DNA of 64,000 bases, taken from the NCBI RefSeq assembly GCF_000503895.1, contig NC_022997.1:1508501-1572500 (forward strand). The letters run 5' to 3'. The translations under genes were made by a program, and so were the position numbers. This DNA is from Hyphomicrobium nitrativorans NL23 (lineage in GTDB: Bacteria; Pseudomonadota; Alphaproteobacteria; Rhizobiales; Hyphomicrobiaceae). The notes beneath the pieces are model-generated. The model had not been told where the DNA came from. It was given only the letters and a program-made list of their open reading frames with translations, and made no database searches. Below, piece by piece: positions 28,400 through 47,863 of the stretch (the stretch's first letter is position 1; each line of letters opens with the position of its first letter).

Positions 28400-29680
28400 T
28401 CATGCGGGCTCCGCGGAGAACACGACGCATACGTTCTGCCCGCCAAATCCGAAGGAATTCGAGAGCACCGTAGCGACGGGCGATTCGCGGCCCGGGTCGG
28501 GTACGACGTCGAGCGGCAACTCGGGATCCGGATCGTAGTTTATGGTGGGCGGGAGTTTCGCGCTTTCGATTGTCAGCACGGAGAAGACTGCTTCCACCGA
28601 ACCGGCCGCGATCAGTGTGTGTCCGATCATCGATTTGTTCGAACTGACCGGGACGTTGCGAAGACGATCTCCCATGACGGCGCCGAGGGCGAAGTATTCC
28701 ATCCGGTCGTTTTCGGGCGTGCTCGTGCCATGCGCATTGACGTAGTCGATCTCGTCGGGATGGACGCCGGCGTCGTCGAGTGTTTTTCGGATGGCTCCGA
28801 TCACTGCTGCGCCGTCCGGCCGGGATCGCGTGCGATGGTGTTCGTCGGCTTTCTCGCCGCAGCCGCGCACAATCGCGAGGATGCGTGCGCCGCGTGCTCT
28901 CGCGGCATCGTAGGATTCGAGGACGAGGGCACCCGCGCCTTCGGCCATGACGAACCCGTCGCGTCCTTTCGAGAACGGTTTCGATGCTTTCGTCGGCTCG
29001 TCGTTTGCCGTCGAGAGGGCGGAGAGCAGAGAAAAGCGGATCAAGCCTTCGGGGTGCACGGTGGCGTCGGCTCCGACGCACAGCGCGGCCTCCGTGTCGC
29101 CGCGGCGGATCGCTTCGAGGCCGAGCTGGATGGTGGTCGCGCCGGAGGCGCAGGCGGTGCAGATCGAAAGCGGTTCGCCTTGTGTGCCGAATGCTGCTTT
29201 CAGGCGATCCGAGATGGCGGCGAAACGGATGTGGCGCGCGAGGTCGTCGAAGGCGCGCGTGCGGGCGTTTGCAAGCATCCGGGCATAACCGTCGAGCCCT
29301 TCTCCTCCCGGCACGCCGTGCATCGCTCTCAGATGCGGCCATTCGAACTCGGACGGCGGCGTGGCGACGATAAGAGGCCCGGGAAAATGCAACGGCCGGC
29401 CGATGCGCGCCTGTGCGATGGCCTCGGCGGCTGCCGCTTCCGCCATACGGATCGCGAGATCGTGAGCGGAATAGGGCGCGACGTCCATGTCGTCCACGGT
29501 GCCGGCGATGGTCGTTTTAAGGCCGTCGGTCGGAAAGCGTGTAATGGACTTCACGCCGGATTGGCCGGTCACGAGCCGCGCCCAGGACGTATGCTTTCCC
29601 GCGCCAAGAGATGTGACCAGCCCGAGGCCGGTGACGGCTACCACTGGCCGGCCCTTATGATCGCGTGTTCTGCTTGTCAT
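28400..29680 (-). CDS. fabF1XL: Beta-ketoacyl-ACP synthase FabF1XL
   Basis: Active condensing enzyme (426 residues) of the lipid A very-long-chain fatty acid cluster. Cys177 lies in CTACASGA, with His residues in VNAHGTSTPEND and NKSMIGHTLIAAG; the C-terminus ends with NSFGFGGQNVCVV. I chose the ATG at 29680, 12 bases after the fabF2XL stop, because it gives the same N-terminus length as the second copy; the frame is open to 29758 but that part overlaps fabF2XL. The gene order acpXL-fabZXL-fabF2XL-fabF1XL-adhXL matches Rhizobium. Confidence 0.9.
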   Translation of the reverse strand: MTSRTRDHKGRPVVAVTGLGLVTSLGAGKHTSWARLVTGQSGVKSITRFPTDGLKTTIAGTVDDMDVAPYSAHDLAIRMAEAAAAEAIAQARIGRPLHFPGPLIVATPPSEFEWPHLRAMHGVPGGEGLDGYARMLANARTRAFDDLARHIRFAAISDRLKAAFGTQGEPLSICTACASGATTIQLGLEAIRRGDTEAALCVGADATVHPEGLIRFSLLSALSTANDEPTKASKPFSKGRDGFVMAEGAGALVLESYDAARARGARILAIVRGCGEKADEHHRTRSRPDGAAVIGAIRKTLDDAGVHPDEIDYVNAHGTSTPENDRMEYFALGAVMGDRLRNVPVSSNKSMIGHTLIAAGSVEAVFSVLTIESAKLPPTINYDPDPELPLDVVPDPGRESPVATVLSNSFGFGGQNVCVVFSAEPA

Positions 29681-29691
29681 GCCGTGCGCCT

Positions 29692-30921
29692 TCACTCCGC
29701 CGCGTCGTGGGCAGATTCGACGAGGGCGAGACCTTCGCCACGCCAGTGGCCGAAGCACGTGACGAGGATCCGGTTTGTCGGTGTGCCGGGGGTGTCCTCG
29801 ATTTCCGTTGCTGCGAACGGCGGATAGAACGTGTTTTTCGATATGGCGAGAGCAGCTAGCGCGAGGCCCGCGATGAAATGCGCTTCGATCCCGTGACCCA
29901 GCACGCTTCCCCAGGTTCGAACGCAGGACTTGAAGCCCCGCTGCTCCATACGCTCCAGAAAATTTTTCTCATCCGCCGTCACGGGTTCGACGCCGCTCGC
30001 GCCCGAGAGAACGGAGAGGTGCCCATTCTTCGGTTGAAGCGCGAGTTCGTCGAAAAGGCGCGCTGCCGTGTCCGTCGATTTTTCGCGGTGGCGGAGCGCT
30101 CGATCCGAAACGATGCGGGAAAGGCGCGCATACGGCACCGCCCCGCGGCTGCGTGCATGATCGCTCGCTTCCAGGACCAGGAACGCACCCATGCTGCCCG
30201 GCACAAGGCCGCCACCATGCGGGCCGCGCTCCCAGACCGATCTGTAAGGGCCGGTTGCCAGAGCATGCGTGATTTCGCATCCGAGGAGTAGATCTTCCCG
30301 CTCCGCGTTGAGCGCTCCGCCCGCGAGGAACACGTCGCCCTGGTTGGCGGCGATGCGGCGGGCTGCGTCGGTAACCGCCGATACGCCTGCCAATTCCTCG
30401 CCCTTGAATGTGCGGGACGAGCCCGTCGCCTTGTGGACGATGGAGATGTTTCCTGCGAGCAGGTTGGAGAGCTGGCCGAGGTAAAGCGTGGGCCTCAGGC
30501 CGACAGCGAGTTCCCGGTTGAGGATGGACTCCGCCGCGTCGCTCGTTTCGAGTGCGGTCAGAACGCGCGCATCCAGGGCGAGATCGCGCTCGCCGTTGCC
30601 GGCTGCGATGGTCAGATTGACGCGGTCGAGGTTCGATTGATCGCCCGCTAGACCCGCATCGGCCAAGGCCAACCCCGCCGTATAAACGCCGATCTGCTGC
30701 CAGCGCTCCATCTGGCGCCGATCGCTCGTTCTTGGAATTTGTTTTGCGAAGTCGAGCGCAACCAACGGATGCACAGCATAGGGCGCGAAGCGCTCGCTAT
30801 CGATGACGGGGCGTGGCGGCGTCACGTCTGCCAGACGTTGCCAGTGCGCGCCCGCGCCTTCGGCCAGCGAGCTCACAAGCCCGATGCCGGTGATCCAGAC
30901 CTCGCGGCTTGTCTCTGCCAT
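29692..30921 (-). CDS. fabF2XL: Ketosynthase-like FabF2XL without catalytic Cys
   Basis: Thiolase-fold protein of 409 residues that pairs with FabF1XL. As in the second copy, the nucleophile position is not Cys (KATGSSRTF), while the histidine regions (SVLGHGIEAHF, GHWRGEGLAL) remain. It therefore probably serves as chain-length or partner subunit. The ATG at 30921 overlaps the fabZXL stop by one base (TGATG). The two FabF2 copies share blocks such as LLAGNISIVH and GGALNAEREDLLLG, so they are clear paralogues. Confidence 0.87.
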   Translation of the reverse strand: MAETSREVWITGIGLVSSLAEGAGAHWQRLADVTPPRPVIDSERFAPYAVHPLVALDFAKQIPRTSDRRQMERWQQIGVYTAGLALADAGLAGDQSNLDRVNLTIAAGNGERDLALDARVLTALETSDAAESILNRELAVGLRPTLYLGQLSNLLAGNISIVHKATGSSRTFKGEELAGVSAVTDAARRIAANQGDVFLAGGALNAEREDLLLGCEITHALATGPYRSVWERGPHGGGLVPGSMGAFLVLEASDHARSRGAVPYARLSRIVSDRALRHREKSTDTAARLFDELALQPKNGHLSVLSGASGVEPVTADEKNFLERMEQRGFKSCVRTWGSVLGHGIEAHFIAGLALAALAISKNTFYPPFAATEIEDTPGTPTNRILVTCFGHWRGEGLALVESAHDAAE

Positions 30922-31391
30922 CAGCAGACCGTTCCCGCCTCCAGCGCACCGAGTCGCCGACCTTCGCGAACCACGTGCTTTTCGAGAGCGGGTGAGGGAA
31001 ACGGAACGTTGCGCATCGTGAGCCTGGCATCCGCGACGCGTTGGCCCCGGCAGGTGAGGCTCGTCGACATGACGGCGTAGCCCGAGCCCAGATGGACGCA
31101 TTCCGCATGGGCCTTCAAAAGGGCGCCCGGTTCAACGAACGCCCTGAAATTCGCAGTCTTGGCTGCCGCAAAAAAGGGCATGCGCGAGAAGTCGTTGAGG
31201 GCCATCAGGAGATAGCCGGCCGCCTGCGCCATCGTCTCCAGAAGGAGAACGCCCGGCATGATCGGGTGGCCTGGAAAGTGCCCGTCGAAGACGGGACTGC
31301 TTCGGGGCACGTGCGCCAGGGCCACGAGCGTTTGCGCTTTGCGGTCGAGCGTCTCGATCTTGTCGAGCATCTGGAAGGTTTCGAGGCGCAT
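30921..31391 (-). CDS. fabZXL: 3-hydroxyacyl-ACP dehydratase FabZXL
   Basis: Hot-dog-fold dehydratase of 156 residues that dehydrates 3-hydroxyacyl-AcpXL during very-long-chain synthesis. The FabZ signature GHFPGHPIMPGVLLLETMAQ holds the active-site His at about residue 38 and Glu near residue 52. It follows acpXL after 17 bases and overlaps fabF2XL by one base. Position and sequence agree with fabZXL of the rhizobial cluster. Confidence 0.92.
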   Translation of the reverse strand: MRLETFQMLDKIETLDRKAQTLVALAHVPRSSPVFDGHFPGHPIMPGVLLLETMAQAAGYLLMALNDFSRMPFFAAAKTANFRAFVEPGALLKAHAECVHLGSGYAVMSTSLTCRGQRVADARLTMRNVPFPSPALEKHVVREGRRLGALEAGTVC

Positions 31392-31407
31392 GGCGCTGCT
31401 GCCCTAT

Positions 31408-31689
31408 CTATTGGGCGACGGCTGTGCGCAGGGCGTCGATCTGGGCGCAGAGGTTGCCGATGACGAAGTACTCGTCTCCGCTGTCCTTGCCCTCGTTGAC
31501 GCGCCCCATCCAGTCTTCGACGGGAAGCTTGATGCCGAACTTCTGGTCAATCTCGAAGGTGATGTCGAGGAACGAGAGGCTGTCGACCTCAAGATCCTTC
31601 ATGACATGGCTTTGCGGTGTGATCTGGTCCAAGGGAACATCGCTCGTCTCTGCGATGATCCCGGCAACGGTGTCGAAAGTCGATGCCAT
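31408..31689 (-). CDS. acpXL: Acyl carrier protein AcpXL
   Basis: Dedicated ACP (93 residues) that carries the growing 26-28 carbon (omega-1)-hydroxy acyl chain for lipid A. The phosphopantetheine Ser is Ser37 in LEVDSLSF. The C-terminal half ([20 protein letters not shown], then NLCAQIDAL) follows the AcpXL pattern and is distinct from the housekeeping ACP. The ATG at 31689 gives the usual MxxTFDxVA start; two more in-frame ATGs lie upstream. It is the first gene of the minus-strand cluster and faces the MaoC-reductase gene across a 202-base promoter region. Confidence 0.95.
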
Positions 31690-31816
31690 GCAAGCGCTCT
31701 CCGTTGAGGTGCTTTCGTCCGGACAGGAGCGAACGGCTCTCCGTCCCCGCCCGATCTGCGGGGCCGAGCCTGATCGGCCAATTAACCTCTCGTAGCAGCG
31801 GGCCTCGGGAGTGCGC

Positions 31817-31830
31817 TTAACAGAAGTCAA
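31817..31830. promoter_or_regulatory. FNR/NnrR-like palindrome between acpXL and the MaoC-reductase gene
   Basis: TTAACAGAAGTCAA fits TTRAC-N4-GTCAA. It is 62 bases before the ATG at 31892 and 128 bases before acpXL, so it could act on either side; the plus-strand operon is nearer. The same GAAGTCAA/GAAAGTCAA half is found upstream of pqqA. Confidence 0.5.
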
Positions 31831-31891
31831 ATTCCGTGAGGATTGCGGCGGCTATCCCTTGTCGCGTGAGGCAACCGGAGCGCACCGAGCG

Positions 31892-33109
31892 ATGTCGAGC
31901 GGAGGAGACCGCCTGCTGGAGCTGAACGTCGGTCAGCGGGCCAGTCTGGCGCGTACGATCACGGCGGAGGATGTCGCCGATTTCGCGCGCCTCTCCGGCG
32001 ACCGTAACGCGCTGCATCTCGACGAAGAGTTTGCCGCGCGCACCGAGTTCGGCCAACGCGTCGTTCATGGCTTCTTGCATGCCAGCCTGCTTTCGACGCT
32101 TGTCGGCACGAAGTTGCCGGGGCGGGGCGCACTCTACGTTTCGCAGAGCATCGCGTTCACACGGCCGGTGTTCATCGGCGACACGGTCGAAGCAAGTGCG
32201 GTCGTCGAGGCCATCGATATCGAGACGCGTGTCGTCACGCTCCGGACAGAAATTACGCGCTCCGGCGGGGAGACCGTCATGCGCGGGACGGCGACGGTCA
32301 GGGTGCTGCGTCTTGCCGCGGAAAAATCGCGAGAAGCATCGCTCGCTGGCGCGCGCACGGCAGGCCTGCTCGACGGGCGCGTGGCGCTCGTCACAGGGGC
32401 TTCGCGCGGCATCGGGCGCGCGACCGCCGCGTTGTTTGCAGGAAACGGCGCGATGGTCTGGATCAACTACCACAAGAGCCGGGCGGCGGCGGAAGCGCTC
32501 GCTCAAGATATTCTCGACAGGGGCGGCTCGTGCCGTCTGGTGCAGGCCGATGTGACGCGTGACGATGAAATCGCGCGCATGATGGATGAAATCGGAAGCG
32601 AAGGCGGCCTCGATGTTCTCGTGAACAACGCCGGGCCGAAGATCGTATCGCGGCCGTTCGCGCGGCTCGACTGGCAGGCAGTGTCGGAGGCCTACGAGTG
32701 GATTGTGGGCAGCGCTTTTCGTGTCACACAGGCCGCACTGCCAGCGCTGAAAGCGAGCAGAGGTAGCATCGTCACCGTTCTTTCGACGGCCGCGCTCGGG
32801 CGGACCGCACACAATTGGCTCCCTTACGTTGCGGCCAAAAGCGCGCTTCTGGCGATGAACAAAAACCTTGCGCAGGAGCTTGGGCCGGATGGTGTCCGGG
32901 TGAACATGATCTCGCCGTCGATGGTCGACACCGATCTCGTCTCGGATGTGCCTGACAGGATGCGGCAGATGACAATTTCGGGAACGCCGCTCAGACGTCT
33001 TGCAACACCGGAAGATGTCGCAGGAGCCGCCTTGATGCTCGCATCGCCCTATGCCGGGTTCGTCACAGGAGAAAATCTTCTTGTGACGGGCGGCGCGTAC
33101 ATGCACTGA
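31892..33109 (+). CDS. MaoC-like hydratase fused to a FabG-like ketoreductase
   Basis: Two-domain protein of 405 residues. Residues about 10-140 form a MaoC-type (R)-enoyl hydratase/dehydratase hot dog (SGDRNALHLDEEF, then VVHGFLHASLLST with the likely catalytic Asp/His). Residues about 160-405 are a short-chain dehydrogenase: TGASRGIG for NADPH, NNAG, then catalytic Ser in VLSTAALG and YVAAK, ending GENLLVTGGAYMH. It could reduce a 3-ketoacyl-ACP and dehydrate the product. I prefer ATG 31892; a GTG at 31811 would include the putative operator. It diverges from acpXL and leads the FkbH-ACP genes. Fusion of these two steps in one chain is uncommon. Confidence 0.88.
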   Translation: MSSGGDRLLELNVGQRASLARTITAEDVADFARLSGDRNALHLDEEFAARTEFGQRVVHGFLHASLLSTLVGTKLPGRGALYVSQSIAFTRPVFIGDTVEASAVVEAIDIETRVVTLRTEITRSGGETVMRGTATVRVLRLAAEKSREASLAGARTAGLLDGRVALVTGASRGIGRATAALFAGNGAMVWINYHKSRAAAEALAQDILDRGGSCRLVQADVTRDDEIARMMDEIGSEGGLDVLVNNAGPKIVSRPFARLDWQAVSEAYEWIVGSAFRVTQAALPALKASRGSIVTVLSTAALGRTAHNWLPYVAAKSALLAMNKNLAQELGPDGVRVNMISPSMVDTDLVSDVPDRMRQMTISGTPLRRLATPEDVAGAALMLASPYAGFVTGENLLVTGGAYMH

Positions 33110-33119
33110 GGAGTTGCCG

Positions 33120-35348
33120 ATGTCTTCGTCTTCCCTAGACATGCCGAGGCCGCCCTCGACGGTGCGTGGGGCAAGCGCGCCAGTCTCGGACGACAAGATC
33201 GGCGAGATTGTCGATGCGGTGATCGATGCGGCGCCGGAATGCGTGCGCAAACGCGTCCTGCTTCCCGCAATCGATTGGGCGCTGGTTCCGCCGCACAAAG
33301 TCAGCTTGCTGGTATCCTCGCTCGATCAGGCGCGACTTCCCTTGCCGCGATGGCTGGCGAAGCCGCTGCTGCTTGCAGGACATACTCTTTCGAGTGCAGC
33401 CAGGGATGCTTTGCCTGGTGCGCTCGCGGTCCTTTCGAGGCTCAATGATGCTGCTGGAGAGCCGGACGAACGTGAGGCTCTTGCTGCGTCTTTGGAAGGC
33501 CTCGCTTACGCTTCCGACATCGACGCGGACACCGCGGTTGCGCTCGTCCGCAGGCTATTGGCGTTGAGCTGGGACGATGAAGCGCTTCGTTTCGCGCTCG
33601 CGCAAGCCCATTCCGCGCCTCAGGCGTTGCGACTTGCAGGCGGTGCATTCGAGCGGCATCTGGCAGATCTTCCTCGTCTCCGGATCCGCATGTCCGGCTC
33701 GTCGACGACGCGAGTTCTGGCGGATGCCCTGCATCCGGCCTTCGGTGTGGAAGGCTGGCGGACGGAGATCTCGGAAAGCAGTTTCGGCGGCGTGATCGGT
33801 GATCTTCTCTCTCCGCCGGATGACGTCGACGCGCTTGTCGTGCTTCTCGATACGGACGGTCTTTTGGCGACGGATTGGCGTCGTGAGGTGCAGGACGTCG
33901 AGCGGATCGCGGCAGAGCGGGTGGATATGCTGGGGCAGGCCCTGCAGGTTTTTTCCTCTCAAGCCGCTGTGCCTCTTCTCATCAACACGCTTCCCGTCCC
34001 GTCGCGCCCGACGGTTGGGCTCCTGGATCGTCGGCATGGCGCGGGCCTCAGGCGTATCGTCGATTCCCTGAACGCGCGCATTCTCGATGCGGCTGCCGCC
34101 TCGGCGCGTGTGATCGTCGTCGACGCGGATCAGGCGCTCTCGGGGCTCGCGGCTCGCGATCATGTCGATCCGAAGCTCTGGTACTATGGCCGCATCGGAT
34201 ATTCGCACGAAGCGACGCAGTGCTTCGCGCGCGCTTTCGCCGAGGCGTGGCGGATCGTGCAACGTGGGCCGGTCAAAGTTCTGGCGGTCGATTTCGACAA
34301 TACGCTTTGGGGCGGCATCTACGGCGACGACGGTGTGGACGGTCTCGCGTGCGGCGAGGATTTTCCGGGCAATGCCTTTCAAGCGCTGCAACAGGAATGT
34401 CTGCGTCTCAAGGCGCAGGGTCTCTTGCTCGTGGCGTTGAGCAAGAACGAAGCGGGTGCTCTCGACGCGTTCGAACAGCATCCCGGCATGGTGCTTAAAG
34501 CCGATGATTTCGCCGCGCACGCCGTCAATTGGCAACCCAAGGCCGACAATCTCAGGCGGATTGCGGCCGATCTCAATCTCGGTCTCGACAGCGTTCTCTT
34601 TCTCGACGATAGCCCGCACGAGCGAGAGGCCATGCGCCGCCTCGTGCCTGAAGTCACGGTGCCGGAGATGCCTGACGATCCGGCGGAGCGGCCGGGGTGG
34701 CTGAGGCGCCTTTCCGCGACATGGCCCGCTCGGCTGACTGCGGAAGACGCATCGCGGCCGGCCGTCTACGCGGCGCGGCGAGCTGCGCAGGAGTTGCAGG
34801 CGCGTGCGGCGAGCTTCGAGGACTATCTTTCGGCATTGGAGCAGCGTCTCGCGTTGAGTTTCGTGAGCGAGAGGACGGTGGCGCGGACGGCGCAGATGCA
34901 CCAGAGAACCAATCAGTTCAATCTGACGACGGTGCGTCTTGGAGAAGCGGATATTTCCGCGCTTGCCGCGGATCCGACGCGAGGCTTTGCGCTTTTGGGA
35001 CAAGTCTCCGACAGGTTCGGAGATCATGGTCTCGTTGTTGCGGCGACCGTGGATATCGACGGGGCAGAGGCCACGATCCGGACGCTTTTGATGAGCTGCC
35101 GCGTGATCGGCCGCGAAGTCGAGCGCGCGTTCGTGGGGGCGCTCGTCGGCGAGTTGGCGTCGCGAGGCGTTGCCCGCGTGCGCGGCATTTACGTGCCGAC
35201 CGCGAAGAACGGCATGGTGCGAGACTTTTACCAATCATGCGGATTTTCGCCGACGGGCGGCGAGGGATCCGGGACGGTTTGGACGTTCGCGATCGGCGAC
35301 ACGGAGCCACCTGGCTCGACCTATGTGACCACAAGTTGGGAGAGATGA
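33120..35348 (+). CDS. FkbH-like HAD-IIIC protein with SGNH-like N-domain and acyltransferase-like C-domain
   Basis: The 742-residue protein has three parts. Residues about 190-380 resemble the SGNH-like domain that often precedes HAD-IIIC (RIRMSGSSTTRVL). Residues about 385-530 are the HAD domain with AVDFDNTLWGGIYGDDG and VLFLDDSPHERE. The C-terminal part has the GNAT-like FkbH end (HQRTNQFNLTT, SCRVIGREVERAFV). FkbH proteins take 1,3-bisphosphoglycerate and load a glyceryl group on an ACP; other family members make non-glyceryl units. ATG 33120 follows GAGGAG; TTG 33114 is also in frame. The ACP gene behind it starts right after its stop, so it is the likely acceptor. Confidence 0.88.
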   Translation: MSSSSLDMPRPPSTVRGASAPVSDDKIGEIVDAVIDAAPECVRKRVLLPAIDWALVPPHKVSLLVSSLDQARLPLPRWLAKPLLLAGHTLSSAARDALPGALAVLSRLNDAAGEPDEREALAASLEGLAYASDIDADTAVALVRRLLALSWDDEALRFALAQAHSAPQALRLAGGAFERHLADLPRLRIRMSGSSTTRVLADALHPAFGVEGWRTEISESSFGGVIGDLLSPPDDVDALVVLLDTDGLLATDWRREVQDVERIAAERVDMLGQALQVFSSQAAVPLLINTLPVPSRPTVGLLDRRHGAGLRRIVDSLNARILDAAAASARVIVVDADQALSGLAARDHVDPKLWYYGRIGYSHEATQCFARAFAEAWRIVQRGPVKVLAVDFDNTLWGGIYGDDGVDGLACGEDFPGNAFQALQQECLRLKAQGLLLVALSKNEAGALDAFEQHPGMVLKADDFAAHAVNWQPKADNLRRIAADLNLGLDSVLFLDDSPHEREAMRRLVPEVTVPEMPDDPAERPGWLRRLSATWPARLTAEDASRPAVYAARRAAQELQARAASFEDYLSALEQRLALSFVSERTVARTAQMHQRTNQFNLTTVRLGEADISALAADPTRGFALLGQVSDRFGDHGLVVAATVDIDGAEATIRTLLMSCRVIGREVERAFVGALVGELASRGVARVRGIYVPTAKNGMVRDFYQSCGFSPTGGEGSGTVWTFAIGDTEPPGSTYVTTSWER

Positions 35349-35603
35349 ATGGATACGTACGCCGCGGCGACGGAGCTGGCTTATCCGGAGATTTCCGAGA
35401 TTTTTGCCGATGTATTTCAGCACGCGGGACCTCTCACGCGCGGAACGTCGCCGGAGGACGTTTCCCGGTGGGATTCTCTCCAGCACATCGCTCTGATCCG
35501 TGCGCTGGAGACGACGTTTGCCGTGCGCCTCTCGATGGATGAGATGATGGAGATCCGCTCCGTGGGCGATATCGAGAGGGTGCTCGGCCGTCATGGCGTG
35601 TGA
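35349..35603 (+). CDS. Small acyl carrier protein following the FkbH gene
   Basis: ACP of 84 residues with the phosphopantetheine Ser43 in RWDSLQHI and a helix 3 region MDEMMEIRSVGDIERVLG. The WDS form of the motif is common in stand-alone ACPs that work with FkbH and not with fatty-acid synthase. It starts directly after the FkbH stop codon (a second ATG overlaps the stop at 35345 but is in another frame). No gene follows on the strand until the regulator 164 bases downstream. Confidence 0.9.
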   Translation: MDTYAAATELAYPEISEIFADVFQHAGPLTRGTSPEDVSRWDSLQHIALIRALETTFAVRLSMDEMMEIRSVGDIERVLGRHGV

Positions 35604-35767: not shown

Positions 35768-36460
35768 ATGGATCCAGCCGACTGGGAGATTATCAAGTCT
35801 ACGCCGCTGTTCGGTGCGATGGCATCGCAAACGGCCGAGCAGCTTGTTGGGAGCAGCCTGCCGCGCTTTTACGACAAAGGCGTCGCGCTATTTCACCAGG
35901 GCGCTCCGGCGACCGCGTTTTTTATCGTTCTCGACGGGTGGGTAAAGATCTATCGCACGACGCCGGATGGGCTCGAAGTCGTGCTGCATGTCTTCCGACA
36001 GGGCGAAACTTTTGCGGAAGCGGCCATCTTTCTCGGTGGCCGCTACCCTGCCAGCGCGGAAACCGTGACGCCGTCTCGCCTTCTCAAAGTGGACGGCGAG
36101 ACGTTTCGGTCGCGGATCGAGGAGCGCCCCGTGCTCGCGATGTCGATGCTCGCGTCTGCCTCCTACCAGCTCAAGTTCCTTGTCGAGCAGATCGAGCAGA
36201 TCAAGGTGCGTTCCGCTCCACAGCGAATTGCCGACTTCATCGTTCGGATGACGCGCGTGCGCCAGGGGCCAGCCGTTATCGAATTGCCGTTCGAGAAGGG
36301 ATTGCTCGCCAACCGGCTCGGCATGAAACCGGAGAGCCTTTCGCGCGCTCTCCAGCAATTGCGGGCGCGCGGCGTTTCGGTGGAGCGCGGGACAGTGAAG
36401 ATCGTGGATGTGCGTCAGCTCCTGGATTTCGTGGAATATGCGAATGAGGATGACGAGTAA
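35768..36460 (+). CDS. Crp/Fnr-family regulator, DNR/NnrR-like, copy 1
   Basis: Transcription factor of 230 residues: cyclic-nucleotide-binding fold (ALFHQGAPATAFFIVLDGWVKIYR, GETFAEAAIFLGGRYP), long dimer helix and C-terminal HTH_Crp. The recognition region LANRLGMKPESLSRALQQL has the Glu-x-x-Ser-Arg pattern that in FNR-type proteins reads TTGAY half-sites. There is no cysteine in the protein, so no FNR-like Fe-S cluster; haem-based nitric oxide sensing as in DNR is plausible but unproven. It lies between the FkbH-ACP operon and pqqA and shares high similarity with the regulator at 47.9 kb. A direct link to both flanking operons is inference. Confidence 0.88.
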   Translation: MDPADWEIIKSTPLFGAMASQTAEQLVGSSLPRFYDKGVALFHQGAPATAFFIVLDGWVKIYRTTPDGLEVVLHVFRQGETFAEAAIFLGGRYPASAETVTPSRLLKVDGETFRSRIEERPVLAMSMLASASYQLKFLVEQIEQIKVRSAPQRIADFIVRMTRVRQGPAVIELPFEKGLLANRLGMKPESLSRALQQLRARGVSVERGTVKIVDVRQLLDFVEYANEDDE

Positions 36461-36593: not shown

Positions 36594-36607
36594 TTAACGA
36601 AAGTCAA
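36594..36607. promoter_or_regulatory. FNR/NnrR-like palindrome upstream of pqqA
   Basis: TTAACGAAAGTCAA fits TTRAC-N4-GTCAA and lies 79 bases before the pqqA ATG at 36686. It is the only recognisable operator in the 225-base gap after the Crp/Fnr gene. Confidence 0.5.
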
Positions 36608-36685
36608 AATACATTCGCGCCTTCGCGACGATAGTGCGCCTCGGGGTTGCAAGACCCTGGCGTTACGAAAACAGGAGGAAACGCG

Positions 36686-36802
36686 ATGAAGTATCTCGAT
36701 CCCGCTTGCTTTGGCGGCACGACCACCATGACCTGGGTCGCTCCCGCGTATTGCGACGTTCGCCTCGGCTTCGAGGTGACGGCGTACGTCTACGTTCGCT
36801 GA
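36686..36802 (+). CDS. pqqA: PQQ precursor peptide PqqA, N-terminally extended
   Basis: Ribosomal peptide of 38 residues, with a strong AGGAGG site 6 bases upstream of ATG 36686. Its last 24 residues match canonical PqqA (compare the Klebsiella form), with the crosslinked pair Glu30 and Tyr34 in EVTAY at the right spacing. The first 14 residues, containing Cys8, are extra. An internal ATG at 36728 would give a standard 24-residue PqqA but has no good ribosome-binding site. Cys23 replaces the usual hydrophobic residue before DVRLG. pqqD and pqqE follow directly; pqqB and pqqC are not in the window. Confidence 0.9.
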   Translation: MKYLDPACFGGTTTMTWVAPAYCDVRLGFEVTAYVYVR

Positions 36803-36846
36803 TTAGGGGGCAGGGTCTCGTGGGACCCTGGACGCGGGAGGAGCAC

Positions 36847-37134
36847 ATGGATGCCGAGAGGCGGCTCGGACCCGAGGATGGGGTCGAGCTCAATCCCAAC
36901 TACCACTTCCGATGGGAAGAGCCGCAGCAGGCTCATGTGCTCCTCTACCCTGAGGGCATCGTCAAGCTGAACGAGACGGCTGCGGCGATACTCGAAGCCT
37001 GCACGGGCGCTCCGTCAATCAAAGACGGTACGGACGAACTCGCCCGCCGCTATGGCAAGCGCAACCTCGGCGCCGAGGTGATTAAGTTCTTGGAGGTCGC
37101 CCATGCCAAAGGCTGGATCCGGATTAAGTCTTGA
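36847..37134 (+). CDS. pqqD: PqqD, peptide chaperone for PqqE
   Basis: RiPP recognition element protein of 95 residues that binds PqqA and presents it to PqqE. Family pattern: NPNYHFRWEEPQQAHVLLYPEGIVKLNETAAAIL at about residues 16-49, then the winged-helix remainder. I chose ATG 36847 because GGAGG lies at a good distance before it; the open frame upstream overlaps pqqA in another frame. It overlaps pqqE by 32 bases, suggesting coupled translation. In several bacteria PqqD is fused to PqqC; here it is separate. Confidence 0.93.
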   Translation: MDAERRLGPEDGVELNPNYHFRWEEPQQAHVLLYPEGIVKLNETAAAILEACTGAPSIKDGTDELARRYGKRNLGAEVIKFLEVAHAKGWIRIKS

Positions 37135-38248
37135 CGGCCTGGGCATGCCGCTGTGGCTCGTTGTCGAGCTGACGTACAAGTGTCCGCTCAAATGCCCGTG
37201 GTGCAGCAATCCCGTCGACTTCGATCGCTATCGGAACGAACTTTCGACCGAAGAGTGGATCGACGTTCTGCGCGAAGGGCGGCGTCTTGGATCGTTGCAG
37301 CTTGGGTTCACGGGCGGTGAGCCGATGCTGCGGAAGGATCTTGAGGTGCTCGTCGGCGAGGCCGACAGGCTCGGTTATTATACGAACCTGATCACGTCGG
37401 GTGTGGGATTGAGCCCGGAACGGCTTCGTGCGCTGAAAACAGCGGGCTTGAAGCAGATACAGCTTTCCCTTCAGGCTTGCGATCAGGAACTCAACGAGAA
37501 GCTCGTCGGCCTCGACGTGTTCCGCCACAAGATCGACATTGCGCGCACGATCAAAGCCGAGGGATTTCCCATGGTGATGAACGTGCCGGTGAGCCGCTTC
37601 AACATCGATCAAACGGAAGCGTTCATCGATCTTGCCGCAGATCTCGGTGTCGAATATCTCGAATTCGCGAACCTGCAATACTACAACTGGGCGCTCATCA
37701 ATCGCGCCGAGTTGATTCCGACGCGCGAGCAACTCGCCCGCGCCGAAGCGCAAGTCAACGCCGCCCGCGAGCGTCTGGGCAAGAAACTCACGATCTTTTA
37801 CGTCGTGCCCGACTACTACGACAATCGTCCCAAGGCGTGCATGAACGGCTGGGGCGCGATCCATCTCACGATTGCGCCTGATGGCACAGCGCTGCCTTGT
37901 CAGGAGGCGCGTCTCATCAAGGGGATCGACTTCCCGAACGTGCGGGATCACGGGCTCGATTTCATCTGGCGCAAGTCGCAGGCTTTCAACGCCTTCCGCG
38001 GCGACGCGTGGATGAAGGAGCCGTGCCGAAGCTGTAGCGAAAAGGAGAGGGACTTCGGCGGCTGTCGGTGCCAGGCATTTCTGCTGACGGGGGATGCGGC
38101 CAATACCGATCCAGTCTGCACGAAGTCACCCCATCGTCATCTGATCGACGACCTGATCGCCAAGGTGCGCCCACGTACGGTGGATCCGGAAACGCCTTTG
38201 ATCATGCGCGAGGCCGGTCGTCGTTCGAAGCGCACGGAGGTCGGCTGA
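37103..38248 (+). CDS. pqqE: PqqE, radical SAM crosslinking enzyme
   Basis: Radical SAM/SPASM enzyme (381 residues) that forms the C-C bond between the Glu and Tyr side chains of PqqA. The AdoMet cluster motif CPLKCPWC gives Cys26, Cys30 and Cys33, and FTGGEPMLR follows. The C-terminal SPASM part has cysteines in ALPCQEAR, CRSCSEKE, GGCRCQAF and DPVCTK for auxiliary clusters. All expected motifs are present, so it should be active. It overlaps pqqD and is followed after 31 bases by the membrane gene of the same strand. Confidence 0.96.
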   Translation: MPKAGSGLSLDGLGMPLWLVVELTYKCPLKCPWCSNPVDFDRYRNELSTEEWIDVLREGRRLGSLQLGFTGGEPMLRKDLEVLVGEADRLGYYTNLITSGVGLSPERLRALKTAGLKQIQLSLQACDQELNEKLVGLDVFRHKIDIARTIKAEGFPMVMNVPVSRFNIDQTEAFIDLAADLGVEYLEFANLQYYNWALINRAELIPTREQLARAEAQVNAARERLGKKLTIFYVVPDYYDNRPKACMNGWGAIHLTIAPDGTALPCQEARLIKGIDFPNVRDHGLDFIWRKSQAFNAFRGDAWMKEPCRSCSEKERDFGGCRCQAFLLTGDAANTDPVCTKSPHRHLIDDLIAKVRPRTVDPETPLIMREAGRRSKRTEVG

Positions 38249-38279
38249 TCGCTGGCTTGCGCGGTCTCCGAGGCACGAT

Positions 38280-38786
38280 ATGGACCTATCTTCACTCGAT
38301 CTTGCGGTGCGTGTTCTGCATGTCGCGGGCGTTCTGATTTGGATCGGGCACAATTGGGCGAATGTGGTGCAGACGCCGGTGTTCCGGCGCGTGCTCCCGC
38401 ATGATCCGCCGGAAGCGGTGCGCGACGTGTTCATCGCGGCGTCGAAGCGGGAGCACGGAATATTCCGGCACGCTTCGCTCGTTGTCGTGGCCACCGGCCT
38501 CTATCTGCTGTGGCGGCGCGGCGATCTCGTCGACGCCCTGCTTCTCTCCGGGCCGTCCGCCGTCATCGGATTGGGGGCGTGGATTGGCACCCTCATGGCG
38601 CTCAACCTGTGGTTCATCATGTGGCCGCATCAGAAAAAGGTGCTGGGCTTTATCGAGGCGCCGACGGAAGAGCGTCTTCGCTGCGCCCGCATCACGTTTG
38701 TCGCTTCGCGCACCAATACGGTGCTGTCGGTGGTCACGCTGATCCTCATGATCGCGGGTGCTCACGGTGGCCTCTCGTTCGGATGA
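38280..38786 (+). CDS. Membrane protein resembling the PuuD/UrrF membrane domain
   Basis: The 168-residue protein has four probable membrane segments. It resembles the membrane part of PuuD-type urate hydroxylases and UrrF-like proteins in the patterns VAGVLIWIGHNWANVVQTPVF and WFIMWPHQKKVLG. It lacks a cytochrome c domain, so it is at most a membrane haem or quinone-linked module. It sits between pqqE and the SerC-like gene with gaps of 31 and 12 bases, so it probably belongs to this operon. Function here unknown. Confidence 0.7.
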   Translation: MDLSSLDLAVRVLHVAGVLIWIGHNWANVVQTPVFRRVLPHDPPEAVRDVFIAASKREHGIFRHASLVVVATGLYLLWRRGDLVDALLLSGPSAVIGLGAWIGTLMALNLWFIMWPHQKKVLGFIEAPTEERLRCARITFVASRTNTVLSVVTLILMIAGAHGGLSFG

Positions 38787-38798
38787 AGAGGAGCCGAC

Positions 38799-39869
38799 TT
38801 GACAGTCTATAGCTTCGCATCCGGCCCCTCGGCGCTTCCCCGCGAGGTGGTGGCCGAGTTGGCGTCGGACGTCGCCGGCTATGGCGGAAGCGAGCTTTCA
38901 GCGCTGGAGTTGCCGTTTTCGGAGGGCATGTTTTCCGACGTTCTCGCCGAGGCCGAGCGCGATTTGCGCGCGCTTCTCGGCGTTCCGCCGAATTACAGAA
39001 TTCTCTTTCTTCAGGGCGGCGCATCGGCGCAGTTCGCGCTGCTTCCGATGAACCTTGCTGGCCGGGGCCGCCACTGCGAGTACGTGCTGGGTGGGCATTG
39101 GTCCCGACGGGCGGCGGCGGAGGCTTCGCGCGCCGCCGATGTCTGGGTCGTTGCGTCGGGCGATGGATGTTCTCTGCCCGATCCCAAATCGTGGCGGCGT
39201 TCGTCCGATGCCGCCTATTGTCACTACACGACAAACGAGACGGCGGATGGGCTGCAGTTTCATGCTCTGCCTGATCCGTCCGACGTTCCGCTCGTTTCCG
39301 ACATGACCGCCGATCTCTTGACGCGCGTCCTCTCGGTGGAGCGCTTTGGCCTGATCTATGCCAGTGCGCAGAAGAACCTGGGCGCGGCGGGTCTGACGCT
39401 GGTGATCGTTCGCGAAGATCTGCTCGGCCGCGCACGTCAGGATATCCCGTCGCCGTTCGATTACACGCGCCAGGCTGAGGCCGGCTCCAAGATCAACACG
39501 CCGCCGACGTTCGCCGTGCTTGTCGCGCATCGGATGCTGCGTTGGCTGCGGAACAACGGCGGCGTGGCGGCGGCCGAGAACCGCAGCAAGGCAAAATGCG
39601 CGACGCTCCATGAGGTCATCGACAGCGACGACTTCTATCGTTGTCCCGCTTCGCTGCCGCATCGGTCGCGCATCAACGTGTGCTTCCGGGTTTCATCTCC
39701 TCGCGCCGAGGAGCTGTTTCTGGACGAAGCGAAAGCGAATGGGCTTGTGCATCTCAATGGCCATCGCGACGTGGGTGGGCTGCGCGCCTCGCTTTACAAC
39801 GGCGTCTCCGAGGAGGCCGTCGATGCCCTCGCTGCCTTTATGACCGATTTCAAACGCCGGAGAGGATGA
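38799..39869 (+). CDS. SerC-family aminotransferase with altered substrate pocket
   Basis: PLP enzyme of 356 residues, colinear with E. coli-type phosphoserine aminotransferase: PLP Lys192 in YASAQKNLGAAG, Asp in VSDMTAD, NTPPTF, and HRDVGGLRASLYN near the end. However, the phosphate-binding His-Arg pair (SHRGKEF in E. coli) is replaced by PFSEGMF (Phe40, Ser41), and the Arg of GGGRGQF is Ser (GGASAQF). The substrate is therefore probably not phosphoserine. The start is TTG 38799 after GAAGAGGAG. Its stop overlaps the next start. Position in the pqqADE operon suggests a dedicated step. Confidence 0.82.
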   Translation: MTVYSFASGPSALPREVVAELASDVAGYGGSELSALELPFSEGMFSDVLAEAERDLRALLGVPPNYRILFLQGGASAQFALLPMNLAGRGRHCEYVLGGHWSRRAAAEASRAADVWVVASGDGCSLPDPKSWRRSSDAAYCHYTTNETADGLQFHALPDPSDVPLVSDMTADLLTRVLSVERFGLIYASAQKNLGAAGLTLVIVREDLLGRARQDIPSPFDYTRQAEAGSKINTPPTFAVLVAHRMLRWLRNNGGVAAAENRSKAKCATLHEVIDSDDFYRCPASLPHRSRINVCFRVSSPRAEELFLDEAKANGLVHLNGHRDVGGLRASLYNGVSEEAVDALAAFMTDFKRRRG

Positions 39870-40648
39870 TGACACACAGCTTGCGCGAGAAGGTTCGTCT
39901 TCATCTCTCGCCGAAACCCACAGCCGCTTCGGCAGAGGGGATTGCGGTTACCGCCATGGGCTTGCCGTTCCCCAACCCTCTCGGGCTGGCTGCCGGCTTC
40001 GACCGGACTGGGGAACTCCTGCCGTCTCTGCTCACGCGCGGGTTCGGTCATGTCGAGGTCGGCACGATCACACCGTTGACAGGACACGCCGGGGCGCTCG
40101 GGCGCAGTGCGCGGCCTATGCACGTCGGCATCAACATCGGCAGCGATCGGCCGGGGCTCGATGAGCGTGTCATCGCGGACTATGTGTCCATGCTGGAGTG
40201 GGCTTCGAAGACCGGAGACTACGTCGTCGCGAATTTGACGGCTTCCGGATTGCATCGCGACGGGAATACCGCAGGGATCGAAACGCTCGTGCGCCGCCTT
40301 GCCGTGACACGCGGCGTGTGCGAGGCGATGTGCGGGCGGCGCGTGCCCCTCCTGCTCAAGATCGATGCTGGCGATCGCCACGCACCTTTTCCCGCAGTAG
40401 TGATGGCGGCGCGTTTGCACGGTCTGGACGGGATCGTTCTGGTATCGGATTGTGTCGATCGGATTCGTGCGGTCTCAGAGTACCTGGACGGACGCGCGGT
40501 GATTTCAGTCGGCGGTGTGAGAACGGCGGACGACGTGAGGGGGCGCCTTGCGGCGGGCGCGTCGCTCGTTCAGGTCCACCGTGCGTTCGCTGACGGCGGC
40601 CCGGCACGCATCCGGCGTATTCTGAGAGACCTCGCAGCGAGGATCTGA
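39866..40648 (+). CDS. Dihydroorotate-dehydrogenase-like flavoprotein lacking the orotate site
   Basis: TIM-barrel FMN protein of 260 residues, well below the usual 335-360 of class 2 PyrD. N-terminal PNPLGLAAGFDRTGE, VEVGTITP and C-terminal VISVGGVRTADD and AAGASLVQVHRAF are retained for FMN. The INRMGFNN segment is missing between TPLTG and VGINIGS, and the catalytic SSPNTPGLR motif is replaced by NLTASGLHRDG. It is therefore unlikely to oxidise dihydroorotate. It overlaps the SerC-like gene (ATGATGA) and ends the plus-strand operon, 31 bases before the convergent ThiO-like gene. Confidence 0.82.
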   Translation: MMTHSLREKVRLHLSPKPTAASAEGIAVTAMGLPFPNPLGLAAGFDRTGELLPSLLTRGFGHVEVGTITPLTGHAGALGRSARPMHVGINIGSDRPGLDERVIADYVSMLEWASKTGDYVVANLTASGLHRDGNTAGIETLVRRLAVTRGVCEAMCGRRVPLLLKIDAGDRHAPFPAVVMAARLHGLDGIVLVSDCVDRIRAVSEYLDGRAVISVGGVRTADDVRGRLAAGASLVQVHRAFADGGPARIRRILRDLAARI

Positions 40649-40679: not shown

Positions 40680-41699
40680 TCATTCCGCGAAGACGAGCGG
40701 GCTCTGGGCGGCCTCCCCAGCGAGATGATCGGCAACGAGTTCCGCCAAAGCGGGCGCGAGAAGAAACCCGTGACGATAGAGTCCGTTTACGCTGATGTGG
40801 CGGCCGTTTGTCACGATGCGCGGCACGTTGTCCGGGAATGCGGGGCGAATGCCGGCGTCGAGAGCGACGATGCGTGCGTCTCCGAAACCGGGATGGAGCG
40901 CGAGAACCGCCGCGAGCAGGTCCATCGCCGAGCGCAGTGTAATCGGCCCTTGCTCCTCGCTCTCGATCACGGTGGCGCCAATCATGTACGTCCCCATGTC
41001 CCACGGAACGAGATAGAGCGGGGAGCGGGGGTGGAGCAACCGGATGGGCCGCGTCAAGGCAACGTTTGGCGTTTGCACGACGATTCGTTCGCCGCGAACG
41101 CCGCGAAGCGATGCGATATCGCGGCTCGCGTCCATGCCGCGGCAGTCGATCACATAGTCGGCATCGTCATCCGACCAGGTTTGCCCGAAAGTCACGCGGC
41201 CGCCGAGGCGACGGATCGTTCGAAGCAGATAAGCGGCTGCGGCGCTCGGCTCGACGTGGGCCTCCTCCGCGTAGAAGAGGCCTGCGTTGAAGCGGTCCGC
41301 GAGATCGGGTTCGAGCTTCGCCAGCACCTCGCTATTGACGGGCTGGTATCCCTCCGTCAAACGCGAGAAGCGAACGAGCTCGCTGTGCTCGCCTGGAGGC
41401 GCCAAGACCAGCGTCCCGTTGCTGATCACGCCCGGAAACGTCGCGCGCCAGATGTCGAGCGCGCGCAGACCGAGGTCCTGGATCAGCGCTGGGCCTGTTG
41501 CGCGCTCACAAAACGGGGCGAGCATCGCGCCAGCCGAGGCGCTGGCCGAGCGCCGGAACAAGGTCTGGGACTGCTCTACGAGATGGACGTCATGCCCGCG
41601 AAAGGCCAGCATATAGGCTTGCCACAATCCGACGATACCGGCACCGACGACAGTTACGGAAGGCGGCTTCGGCGTGTTGGGCCCCTTATCCGATGACAT
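40680..41699 (-). CDS. FAD-dependent amine/glycine-oxidase-like protein, ThiO-like
   Basis: DAO-family flavoprotein of 339 residues with the N-terminal ADP-binding motif VVGAGIVGLWQAYMLAFRGHDV and the C-terminal FAD-contact region ISVNGLYRHGFLLAPALAELVADHL typical for glycine oxidase ThiO. It may oxidise an amine or amino acid; the substrate is unknown. I prefer ATG 41699 with GGAGCG upstream; ATG 41711 is in frame. The start overlaps the ubiV end by 14 bases, so it is co-transcribed with ubiT-ubiU-ubiV. No thiG, thiS or other thiamine gene is near, which makes a role in thiamine synthesis doubtful. Confidence 0.8.
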   Translation of the reverse strand: MSSDKGPNTPKPPSVTVVGAGIVGLWQAYMLAFRGHDVHLVEQSQTLFRRSASASAGAMLAPFCERATGPALIQDLGLRALDIWRATFPGVISNGTLVLAPPGEHSELVRFSRLTEGYQPVNSEVLAKLEPDLADRFNAGLFYAEEAHVEPSAAAAYLLRTIRRLGGRVTFGQTWSDDDADYVIDCRGMDASRDIASLRGVRGERIVVQTPNVALTRPIRLLHPRSPLYLVPWDMGTYMIGATVIESEEQGPITLRSAMDLLAAVLALHPGFGDARIVALDAGIRPAFPDNVPRIVTNGRHISVNGLYRHGFLLAPALAELVADHLAGEAAQSPLVFAE

Positions 41700-42591
41700 A
41701 GGTCGCTCCATTCGTGCCGTGCACGAAGCCGTTCGAGAATACGGCGTCGGGCGCCAATGCGCGCAGGAGCCTCATGGCGTGCGCGGGCTCGCGTGCTCCG
41801 TCGAGCGTGTCCCGAAAGATGTTGGACACGGCAACCATGTCGAAGGTGTGGGGCGAAAGGCGTAGGGCCTTGACGCCGCAATGGGCCAGGAGAGGTGCAT
41901 CGACGACGAGGTTGCAATACGATTGCGAGAGCGTCTGCACGCCGTTGATTGCGAGAAACTCCTCGCCATCCGACGTGTCGACGGGAAGGCCGTCGAGATC
42001 TTTCTCGCAGACGAACTGACACGAATCCTTGGTCCGTCCATGCAGGCGCGCGTGATAGCAGCGGGCCGAAATGGCGAGCGGCACCCTTCCGAATGCCCAT
42101 AATTCGACAGTCGCCTGCGGTACGGCCGCGGCGATGGCTGCGATCGACGACGTGGGAAGCTCCGGCGGCAGGGCAATGCGGGCCGCACCCCTTTCGGCAA
42201 GAAACCGAGCGGCGGCTTCGTTGTACACGTTGATGAGGGGGCCGATGGCGTGTGGACGGCCCGCGAGGTGGGGAAGGATGGAGACGTCGTTGGCCTCCAC
42301 CATCTGCGAGGCTTCCGCAAGCGTTGCGCCGTAGCGGAGTTCCCGCTGTAGCGTAGGGAGCGCGAGGGAGCTCAAGATCACAGTTTTCCCGCCGCGCTCA
42401 AGGCGCTCGATCACTTCGGGAAGCACGTCCGAAAAAAACGGCTGGCGCTTCGAGCACACAACCTCGCCCACGCAAACGGTATCGACGGGCGCCTCGTCGG
42501 CAATCCGCGCGTAGAAGTCGCGCCAATGATCGGCCGGCCAGTTGAAGAGAACCGGGCCGAGCGTCAGCGACATGTGTTGCGTTTCGCTCAT
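41686..42591 (-). CDS. ubiV: UbiV, O2-independent ubiquinone hydroxylation subunit
   Basis: Peptidase-U32-fold protein of 301 residues that with UbiU hydroxylates ubiquinone precursors without oxygen, using prephenate as hydroxyl donor. Four Fe-S cysteines fit the E. coli pattern: Cys40, and Cys178, Cys191 and Cys195 in SARCYH and SCQFVCEKD. The ATG at 42591 overlaps the ubiU stop as ATGA; the frame is open upstream inside ubiU but without meaning. The operon faces an FNR-like site. Confidence 0.94.
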   Translation of the reverse strand: MSETQHMSLTLGPVLFNWPADHWRDFYARIADEAPVDTVCVGEVVCSKRQPFFSDVLPEVIERLERGGKTVILSSLALPTLQRELRYGATLAEASQMVEANDVSILPHLAGRPHAIGPLINVYNEAAARFLAERGAARIALPPELPTSSIAAIAAAVPQATVELWAFGRVPLAISARCYHARLHGRTKDSCQFVCEKDLDGLPVDTSDGEEFLAINGVQTLSQSYCNLVVDAPLLAHCGVKALRLSPHTFDMVAVSNIFRDTLDGAREPAHAMRLLRALAPDAVFSNGFVHGTNGATYVIG

Positions 42592-43589
42592 CGCCACGTC
42601 TTCTCGTAAGCGCCGCCGGTGACGTTCTGCCCTTCCGTGAGGGGGGCAAGCGAATCGAGAGGCAGCGGGCCCGCCGTTTCCAGTGCGTCCACCGACCTTC
42701 GAAACGCGCTGACGACGGCCTTGATGTAGGCGCGGCTGCGTTGCCGGCCTTCGATCTTGATCGCGGTTACGCCGGCTGCTGCGAGCGCGGGCAGGAGCGT
42801 TCTGACGTCGAGGCTTACCGGCTCCTCGAAGAGATGCCCTTCTCCGATTGCCGTCTTGAAGCGTCCCTTGCAAAGCGTGGGATAGCCGACCGGCTGATCC
42901 GGAGCGGAGCGGTCGATGGTGAAGTCTCCGAGCCGCGATACGAGCGTTCCATCGTCGTTGCGATAGCTCACGTGGCTAGCCGGTGAGCAGACGCCGTTCA
43001 TGTTCGGCGATTTTCCGGTGGCGTACGACGACAACGAACAGCGCCCCTCGGTCATCACGCAGAGGCCGCCGAACGCGAATGTCTCGGTCTCGCAGCGTGC
43101 GTGACGCGTGACGGCGGCGATTTCATCGATCGTGAGGACGCGAGGCAGGACGGCGCGCTTCACGCCGAAGGTGTCTACGTAGAAATTTATGGCATCCGCG
43201 CTGGCCGCTGCGGCTTGCACCGAAAGATGGAGCCTCAGATTTGAATGGTGCTTTGCCGCGTAATCCAAAAGCCCGAGGTCGGCCAGGATCACGGCATGTG
43301 CGCCAAGCGCGGCGGCATCGTCGACGGCGTGGCGCCAGGGGCCGGGATCTCCTGCGCGTGCATATGTGTTGATGGCTATGAGGAGCTTTGCGCCGCGGCT
43401 GCGCGCGTAGGCGACGGCAGCCCCCATCTCCTCGCGGCTGAAGTTGAGGCCGGGAAAATTCCGGGCGTTCGTCTCGTCGCGAAAGCCGCAGTAGACGGCG
43501 TCGGCGCCAGCTTCGATGGCGGTGCGCAGGGCGGATGGCGTTCCGGCAGGGCAGACGAGTTCGAGAGGTCTTCTTTTCGTCGCCGTCAC
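42588..43589 (-). CDS. ubiU: UbiU, O2-independent ubiquinone hydroxylation subunit
   Basis: Peptidase-U32-fold protein of 333 residues, partner of UbiV. It opens with ELVCPAGTPSALRTAIEAGADAVYCGF. Cysteines 177, 184, 201 and 240 (GLCVMTEGRC, GVCSPA, TLCKGRF) have exactly the spacing of the 4Fe-4S ligands of E. coli UbiU. It overlaps ubiT by 4 bases before and ubiV by 4 bases after. Presence of the full UbiTUV set means the cell can make ubiquinone while respiring nitrogen oxides without oxygen. Confidence 0.95.
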   Translation of the reverse strand: MTATKRRPLELVCPAGTPSALRTAIEAGADAVYCGFRDETNARNFPGLNFSREEMGAAVAYARSRGAKLLIAINTYARAGDPGPWRHAVDDAAALGAHAVILADLGLLDYAAKHHSNLRLHLSVQAAAASADAINFYVDTFGVKRAVLPRVLTIDEIAAVTRHARCETETFAFGGLCVMTEGRCSLSSYATGKSPNMNGVCSPASHVSYRNDDGTLVSRLGDFTIDRSAPDQPVGYPTLCKGRFKTAIGEGHLFEEPVSLDVRTLLPALAAAGVTAIKIEGRQRSRAYIKAVVSAFRRSVDALETAGPLPLDSLAPLTEGQNVTGGAYEKTWR

Positions 43590-47706: not shown

Positions 47707-47720
47707 TTGAGCGATGTCAA
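47707..47720. promoter_or_regulatory. FNR/NnrR-like palindrome, distal site upstream of Crp/Fnr copy 2
   Basis: TTGAGCGATGTCAA fits TTGAN-N4-GTCAA with one mismatch in the left half. It lies 144 bases before the regulator ATG and 45 bases from the second, perfect site. It is one of two sites in the 376-base gap between the LpxQ-like and regulator genes; nothing else is evident there. Confidence 0.45.
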
Positions 47721-47764
47721 GGATTTTCGACCGCCCCTCGTTGCGCGTCTCCGATGGGCGGCCC

Positions 47765-47778: not shown

Positions 47779-47863
47779 GCGCGGGCTATTGATGTGCTCT
47801 CGCGGTTTTCCCCGTGCGCCCCCGCATAGCGGATCGCACCCTGCCTCTCCGGACAGAACGACA

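Follow-up and report, generated by a model that had tools for sequence, protein, structure and literature searches.

A conserved pqqADE–DUF989–serC gene cluster of Hyphomicrobium nitrativorans as a candidate oxygen-independent branch of PQQ synthesis

Six plus-strand genes at positions 36686–40648 of the stretch of Hyphomicrobium nitrativorans NL23 DNA analysed here (NC_022997.1, positions 1,508,501 to 1,572,500; these 64,000 nucleotides are called the window below) join pqqA, pqqD and pqqE of pyrroloquinoline quinone (PQQ) synthesis to genes for a PuuD-like membrane protein of the DUF989 family, a SerC-like pyridoxal phosphate (PLP) enzyme and a PyrD-like flavoprotein. We read this cluster as a branch parallel to the aerobic pathway that makes PQQ, or something like it, independently of oxygen, with a probability of roughly 0.6. 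Its conservation, its distinct lineage and the changed substrate sites of its enzymes are established here. PqqC requires oxygen and denitrifying methylotrophs rely on PQQ methanol dehydrogenase; should the cluster yield PQQ under anaerobic conditions, the PQQ supply of these organisms would be explained. The reading, if true, would also mean a new type of reaction for DUF989 proteins and PQQ production without aeration.

The function has already been proposed in print, and the present work is therefore not a first discovery. Whereas the original prediction was unaware of any published pathway of this composition, Li et al. (PMC12423496, published in 2025) describe in section 2.9 a pqqAED-puuD-serC-pyrD cluster and speculate that it completes PQQ without oxygen, so that both the gene set and the suggested role are those considered here. 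The carriers named are H. denitrificans, H. nitrativorans, Halomonas sulfidovorans, Stutzerimonas stutzeri, Methylophaga nitratireducenticrescens and Azoarcus sp. DN11, all of them denitrification-capable and denitrifying methylotrophs among them, while anaerobic PQQ synthesis is reported to be absent in K. pneumoniae and P. aeruginosa, which have no more than the canonical set. Transcripts of Hden_0551–0553 are down in the sHdrR and SoxR mutants, like the denitrification transcripts; section 2.9 contains no transcript figures for puuD, serC and pyrD, and neither counts from a survey nor a tree, an analysis of active sites, an M48 peptidase or operator sites. A 2024 paper on nitrous oxide-respiring methanotrophs considers PQQ enzymes limited in strict anoxia, PQQ synthesis being oxygen-dependent (PMC11102522). 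Our survey supports and sharpens the published idea, and makes it more specific and testable.

Gene calls and family models agree on the six predicted genes and on their close spacing: 44 bases separate pqqA from pqqD, and the pairs pqqD/pqqE and serC/pyrD overlap. The 38-residue precursor PqqA (36686..36802) is over the cut-offs of both PF08042 and TIGR02107 and contains the E-x3-Y core, with a predicted crosslink pair at Glu30 (36773–36775) and Tyr34 (36785–36787). The peptide chaperone PqqD (36847..37134) belongs to PF05402 and TIGR03859 (79.5 bits, cut-off 46) and falls below the stricter model NF002535 (87.9 against 101), and the radical SAM/SPASM enzyme PqqE (37103..38248) scores 511.7 bits with TIGR02109 (cut-off 381). 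Downstream, the short DUF989 protein (38280..38786, 168 residues) reaches 37.3 bits with PF06181 (cut-off 26.9). The SerC-like protein (38799..39869, 356 residues), which has no phosphoserine site, reaches 416 bits with NF003764 (cut-off 253) and 385.8 with TIGR01364, below the cut-off of 443.6. The PyrD-like protein (39866..40648, 260 residues), an accessory member of the cluster, passes the cut-off of the Pfam DHO_dh model and is under the cut-off in all 14 of the NCBIfam dihydroorotate dehydrogenase (DHODH) models that it matches.

Carriers were surveyed in Pseudomonadota genomes with a short DUF989 profile match as the marker, and in plasmid records with a PyrD-like query. The DUF989 profile (A3) was built from six sequences and applied at E≤1e-15 in a phylum sample and at E≤1e-40 thereafter. 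In the phylum sample the scores fall from 322 bits (the window's own genome, G000) and 207 bits (genome G023) to 119. At the stricter threshold, carriers amount to 15/103 genomes in the window's family, 20/198 in the family of G023, 8/385 in Alphaproteobacteria and 4/369 in the class of G023; G000 or G023 is recounted in each set, which leaves 45 distinct carrier genomes. The six genes also lie on two plasmid records, from Methylovirgula sp. HY1 and Acidibrevibacterium fodinaquatile. The PyrD-like query matches 64 plasmid records, of which 2 were inspected, the rest among the matches listed having at most 31% identity, and a contig search with one protein as query gave three loci. The comparison thus covers 49 loci from 47 distinct carriers (45 genomes and two plasmids), L006/L075 and L007/L076 coming from the same genomes; some neighbouring stretches carry mechanical gene calls, and many of the frames listed there are not genes. 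Short DUF989 proteins as such are common (any match at E≤1e-15 in 86/398 genomes of the phylum sample) and occur mostly outside PQQ contexts. A general tie between them and PQQ was rejected on 28 lower-scoring loci (L012–L039), whose short flanks hold no pqq, serC or pyrD.

The DUF989 and SerC profiles match in 49/49 loci, and Alpha- and Gammaproteobacteria as well as the two plasmids share the order and strand of pqqA-D-E-DUF989-serC, with three exceptions: L086 stops before pqqA, and pqqE and DUF989 are separated by an extra gene in L128 and by a second PqqE-like gene in L130. Since the order is conserved in distant genomes, chance is ruled out as the origin of the arrangement. The extra gene of L130 (8603–9697, minus strand) is a divergent radical SAM/SPASM gene with a very long branch in the PqqE tree. 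For pyrD, the profile reaches at least 60 bits in 39/49 loci, finds a fragment in L128 (27.9 bits) and two frames in L106, and has no match in L006/L075, L085, L086 and L129–L133, the contig of L086 ending shortly after serC. The first half of the refuting case named with the original prediction, SerC- and PyrD-like genes not conserved beside pqqADE, does not hold for serC, nor for pyrD in most carriers, the latter being absent or broken in some. An M48 peptidase-like open reading frame was found in 12/49 loci, a number that may be too low where early contig ends conceal further M48 genes; in 11 of the 47 distinct carriers (L009, L081, L083, L084, L087, L127, L128, L129, L131, L132 and L133) it directly follows the cluster in the same orientation, and in L130 it lies on the opposite strand. 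Six of six such frames tested pass both Pfam cut-offs, PF01435 and PF16491. In the window itself, no M48 peptidase gene stands next to the cluster.

The PqqE and PqqA proteins of the cluster form a lineage of their own. When 74 PqqE rows are placed in one tree, a single branch splits 48 cluster from 26 canonical sequences (support 100/97; 100% of 200 bootstrap trees), and the cluster clade is shared by two classes; the window's family contributes a single canonical row, a fragment on a long branch, and the tree carries a long-branch warning. The motif RLGFEVTAY is present in 42/42 PqqA copies recovered from 48 loci, with a recovery pattern that required the E-x3-Y core only and not the remaining residues, and tblastn finds a cluster PqqA in 5 of the 6 loci without a recovered copy. 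Canonical PqqA beside pqqB (recovered in 17/18 loci) has this motif in 0/17 cases: 16 read RIGFEVTMY, and the copy in the window's own genome reads GLEVTSY.

Two of the added enzymes have remodelled sites. The PLP lysine is present in all 47 distinct SerC-like proteins, as is an equivalent of E. coli Arg335. His41 and Arg42 (E. coli numbering), which we take to be the phosphate-binding pair, are replaced, the former by Phe in 47/47 and the latter by Thr, Gly, Ser or Asn in 47/47 (Arg in 0/47), at a position where three solved SerC chains read SHRS; the Arg329 equivalent is Arg in 2/47, the window's protein among them. The 38 distinct PyrD-like proteins all keep the equivalents of Asn172 and Lys217. 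In class 2 DHODH, Ser175 is presumably catalytic and Asn177, Asn246 and Thr247 presumably make contacts (E. coli numbering); the equivalents here are Ser in 11 (Ala in the window), Asn in 0, Asn in 0 (2 gaps) and Thr in 1 (2 gaps), respectively. A flavin mononucleotide (FMN) motif, SVGG, is visible in 16–17 rows, the alignment ending before it in about half, and the structural model retains the DHODH fold (pLDDT 70.8; best match 1f76, E 1.2e-14). With these residues changed, activity on the ancestral substrate is improbable for both enzymes. The housekeeping SerC is encoded elsewhere in the genome (TIGR01365, 630 bits). As for the DUF989 protein, the model shows four long helices (mean pLDDT 73.8), and the sequences have three invariant histidines (H14, H24 and H59, 47/47); the window's protein has one cysteine only and no CXXCH.

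The FNR/NnrR-like site predicted upstream of pqqA was recovered as an FNR/DNR-type operator-like sequence, TTAACGAAAGTCAA (36594..36607), 78 bases 5′ of the pqqA start, with one mismatch to TTGAYNNNNRTCAA and three to the strict FNR consensus TTGATNNNNATCAA; the best match of a strict FNR search in the window, also with three mismatches, is a different site. By eye, GATAGT at 36630–36635 would put the reported site near −41. Within 330 bases upstream, 17/41 rows contain TTGAYNNNNRTCAA with no more than one mismatch, against 1.4 expected from shuffles; this enrichment is not a p-value because the upstream rows are related, and it is partly post hoc because the consensus was relaxed to the DNR/NnrR form after the strict FNR result (5/42 rows at up to one mismatch, 0.7 expected) had proved weaker. 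A Crp/Fnr-family regulator, a candidate for control of the operon, is encoded directly 5′ of the cluster in the window (35768..36460, plus strand; PF00027 and PF13545, best NCBIfam model FtrB, under cut-off) and also in L005, L006, L007, L008, L075, L077 and L080. A second FtrB-like regulator, 62% identical to the first, lies at 47714–48562 (plus strand).

The cluster is also associated with oxygen-independent ubiquinone synthesis, whose genes ubiV (41686..42600, minus strand; NF047965, 361 bits, cut-off 275) and ubiU (42588..43589, minus strand; NF047963, 496 bits, cut-off 440) are its neighbours in the window. UbiV is over cut-off in 17/103 genomes of the window's family, with 11/15 carriers against 6/88 others (Fisher 6.6e-8), and in 94/198 genomes of the G023 family, with 20/20 carriers against 74/178 others (1.0e-7), or 17/17 against 10/15 within the main genus of that family (0.015), all of these being statistics that ignore shared ancestry. 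In 11/11 UbiV-positive carriers of the window's family, ubiV and the cluster are no more than about 17 kb apart; in the G023 family the distance is 0.7–1.7 Mb in six single-contig carriers and 32 kb in G514. This link suggests that the cluster serves in true anoxia.

The Glu–Tyr crosslink in PqqA is made by PqqE together with PqqD through radical SAM chemistry, for which oxygen is not required. Mechanistically, an FNR/DNR-type activator would switch the operon on at low oxygen, and PqqE and PqqD, by homology, would crosslink Glu30 and Tyr34 of the cluster PqqA. A peptidase would then release the Glu-Tyr unit: the adjacent M48 membrane peptidase in some carriers, and an unlinked one elsewhere, including the window. 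The PuuD-like DUF989 protein could draw electrons from the aromatic intermediate into the respiratory chain, with water supplying the ring oxygens in place of the oxygen chemistry of PqqB and PqqC, while the SerC-fold PLP enzyme would work on a free alpha-amino group in the crosslinked dipeptide. In carriers that have it, the PyrD-like flavoprotein might dehydrogenate the carboxylated nitrogen ring in a reaction resembling that from dihydroorotate to orotate, and the product would supply PQQ methanol dehydrogenase in denitrification. Crosslinked PqqA, as first predicted, feeds a conserved branch that is probably oxygen-independent. The complete oxygen-free route to PQQ, with water-based oxidations by DUF989 alongside a SerC-fold PLP enzyme and, optionally, a DHODH-fold flavoprotein, and with M48 in some carriers, is a tentative scheme, possible rather than probable.

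At the level of the genome, the canonical genes are not missing. Model searches find zero pqqB and pqqC matches within the 64-kb window, as predicted; the genome, a single contig of 3,653,837 bases, encodes outside the window a pqqB over cut-off (2736595–2737521) and two pqqC over cut-off (2737563–2738273 and 2443963–2444670), and the cluster is therefore a second system and not a replacement. The canonical pqqE beside this pqqB and pqqC is 47% identical to the cluster pqqE over the part compared; the second pqqC (2443963–2444670) stands apart from pqqB. The idea that the new genes stand instead of pqqB and pqqC is not supported at this level, as 43/45 carriers (35/35 and 8/10 in two carrier sets) keep pqqC over cut-off.

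This retention is one of the points that weigh against an oxygen-independent branch, since with pqqC in nearly every carrier the sufficiency of the cluster without PqqB and PqqC is only hypothetical. The two carriers without pqqC over cut-off are weak cases (G839, 88% complete; G893, 96% complete and 8% contaminated), and there is no convincing carrier without the aerobic genes among the 45 genomes surveyed. To this are added the relaxed consensus and the uncorrected co-occurrence statistics described above, and the absence of UbiV from four of the window family's 15 carriers, all four being assemblies of at least 360 contigs. The PyrD-like gene is without a profile match in 8/47 distinct carriers and fragmentary in two more; being dispensable in some carriers, it leaves DUF989 and the SerC-like enzyme as the core. 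For the DUF989 protein, confidence in the model is modest and a cofactor is only putative: models of 4 sequences gave nothing but unrelated helical bundles in the PDB, with 0 matches at E≤0.001, and its profile gave zero matches to PDB chains at E≤5. A PLP step is not obvious either, because PQQ keeps both amino nitrogens. Finally, no experimental test of the cluster, biochemical or genetic, was found among the matches listed from the open-access literature, subscription journals and preprints being outside the scope of the search.

Another reading is that the cluster makes a different PqqA-derived product. The PLP enzyme could remove or shift an amino group, giving a compound with one ring nitrogen fewer or another redox peptide metabolite; known PQQ chemistry requires no transamination, the SerC-fold enzyme is present with a remodelled substrate site in all carriers examined, and PqqA and PqqE belong to a dedicated lineage. 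However, PqqA retains its E-x3-Y core, the remaining PQQ machinery is encoded in nearly all carriers, and the carriers named in print include denitrifying methylotrophs with evident PQQ use (PMC12423496), so that we regard another product as unlikely. We think it similarly unlikely that the cluster replaces or boosts only some of the oxygen steps at low oxygen and hands an intermediate to the PqqB or PqqC encoded elsewhere. Such a bypass fits the pqqC genes kept in 43/45 carriers and the canonical pqqBCDE found inside the same stretch as the cluster at many G023-family loci, but an oxygen-dependent step would still block strictly anoxic use, whereas the ubiV link suggests genuine anoxia.

The simplest alternative, raised with the original prediction, was a spare copy of pqqADE among unrelated neighbours, with the canonical enzymes finishing all PQQ. 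Its premise is correct insofar as pqqB and pqqC do sit elsewhere in the genome, and the uneven retention of pyrD agrees with it. DUF989 and serC are, however, not bystanders: they accompany pqqADE in unchanged order in each carrier locus examined, the PqqE proteins fall into a single clade common to two classes, and the SerC site is altered in 47/47, which makes a spare copy very improbable. The reading that we prefer remains a branch by which PQQ, or a PQQ-like compound, is made independently of oxygen.

Other genes of the window and of the loci surveyed complete the picture. At 50578–55317 (plus strand), a GvpN-like AAA protein (51964–52770) and a cytochrome oxidase subunit III-like protein (54739–55317) form a pair that we take to suggest a nitric oxide reductase gene group. 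A hybrid histidine kinase at 58046–60418 (plus strand) is near the NO-sensing NahK/ErcS family (372.9 bits, slightly below the cut-off of 400). Between the cluster and ubiVU lies a ThiO-like flavin adenine dinucleotide (FAD) oxidoreductase (40680–41711, minus strand; 226.5 bits, cut-off 250.8), a relative of which adjoins the cluster in several Hyphomicrobium loci, and on the Methylovirgula plasmid (L008) a cbpA/cbpB modified-peptide pair adjoins it at 3329–4908. In the window, directly 5′ of the cluster (24766–35603), are beta-ketoacyl synthases, an FkbH-domain protein (33114–35348) and an acyl carrier protein (35349–35603); fatty-acid-type genes are also reported beside the H. denitrificans cluster (PMC12423496).

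Compared with known systems, the cluster shares PqqA, PqqD and PqqE with the canonical pqqABCDE(F) pathway at curated cut-offs, and differs in being without pqqB and pqqC and in having its own PqqE clade and PqqA sequence. PuuD, which oxidises urate and passes electrons to cytochrome c (Doniselli et al. 2015, PMC4562309), combines an eight-helix DUF989 domain with a C-terminal cytochrome c; the cluster protein is a shortened version of that membrane domain, with four helices. That paper had already noted, in other gene contexts, DUF989 proteins that are shorter and have four of the helices (I, II, V and VI). With phosphoserine aminotransferase, the SerC-like protein has in common a full-length family match and the PLP lysine, and differs in the phosphate-binding residues; with class 2 dihydroorotate dehydrogenase, the PyrD-like protein has the modelled fold in common (E. 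coli 1f76), and is shorter and retains few of the substrate-contact residues. UbiU and UbiV are different proteins, with no family in common with the cluster in model searches, but the principle is alike: a low-oxygen route to a quinone that runs in parallel with an aerobic route.

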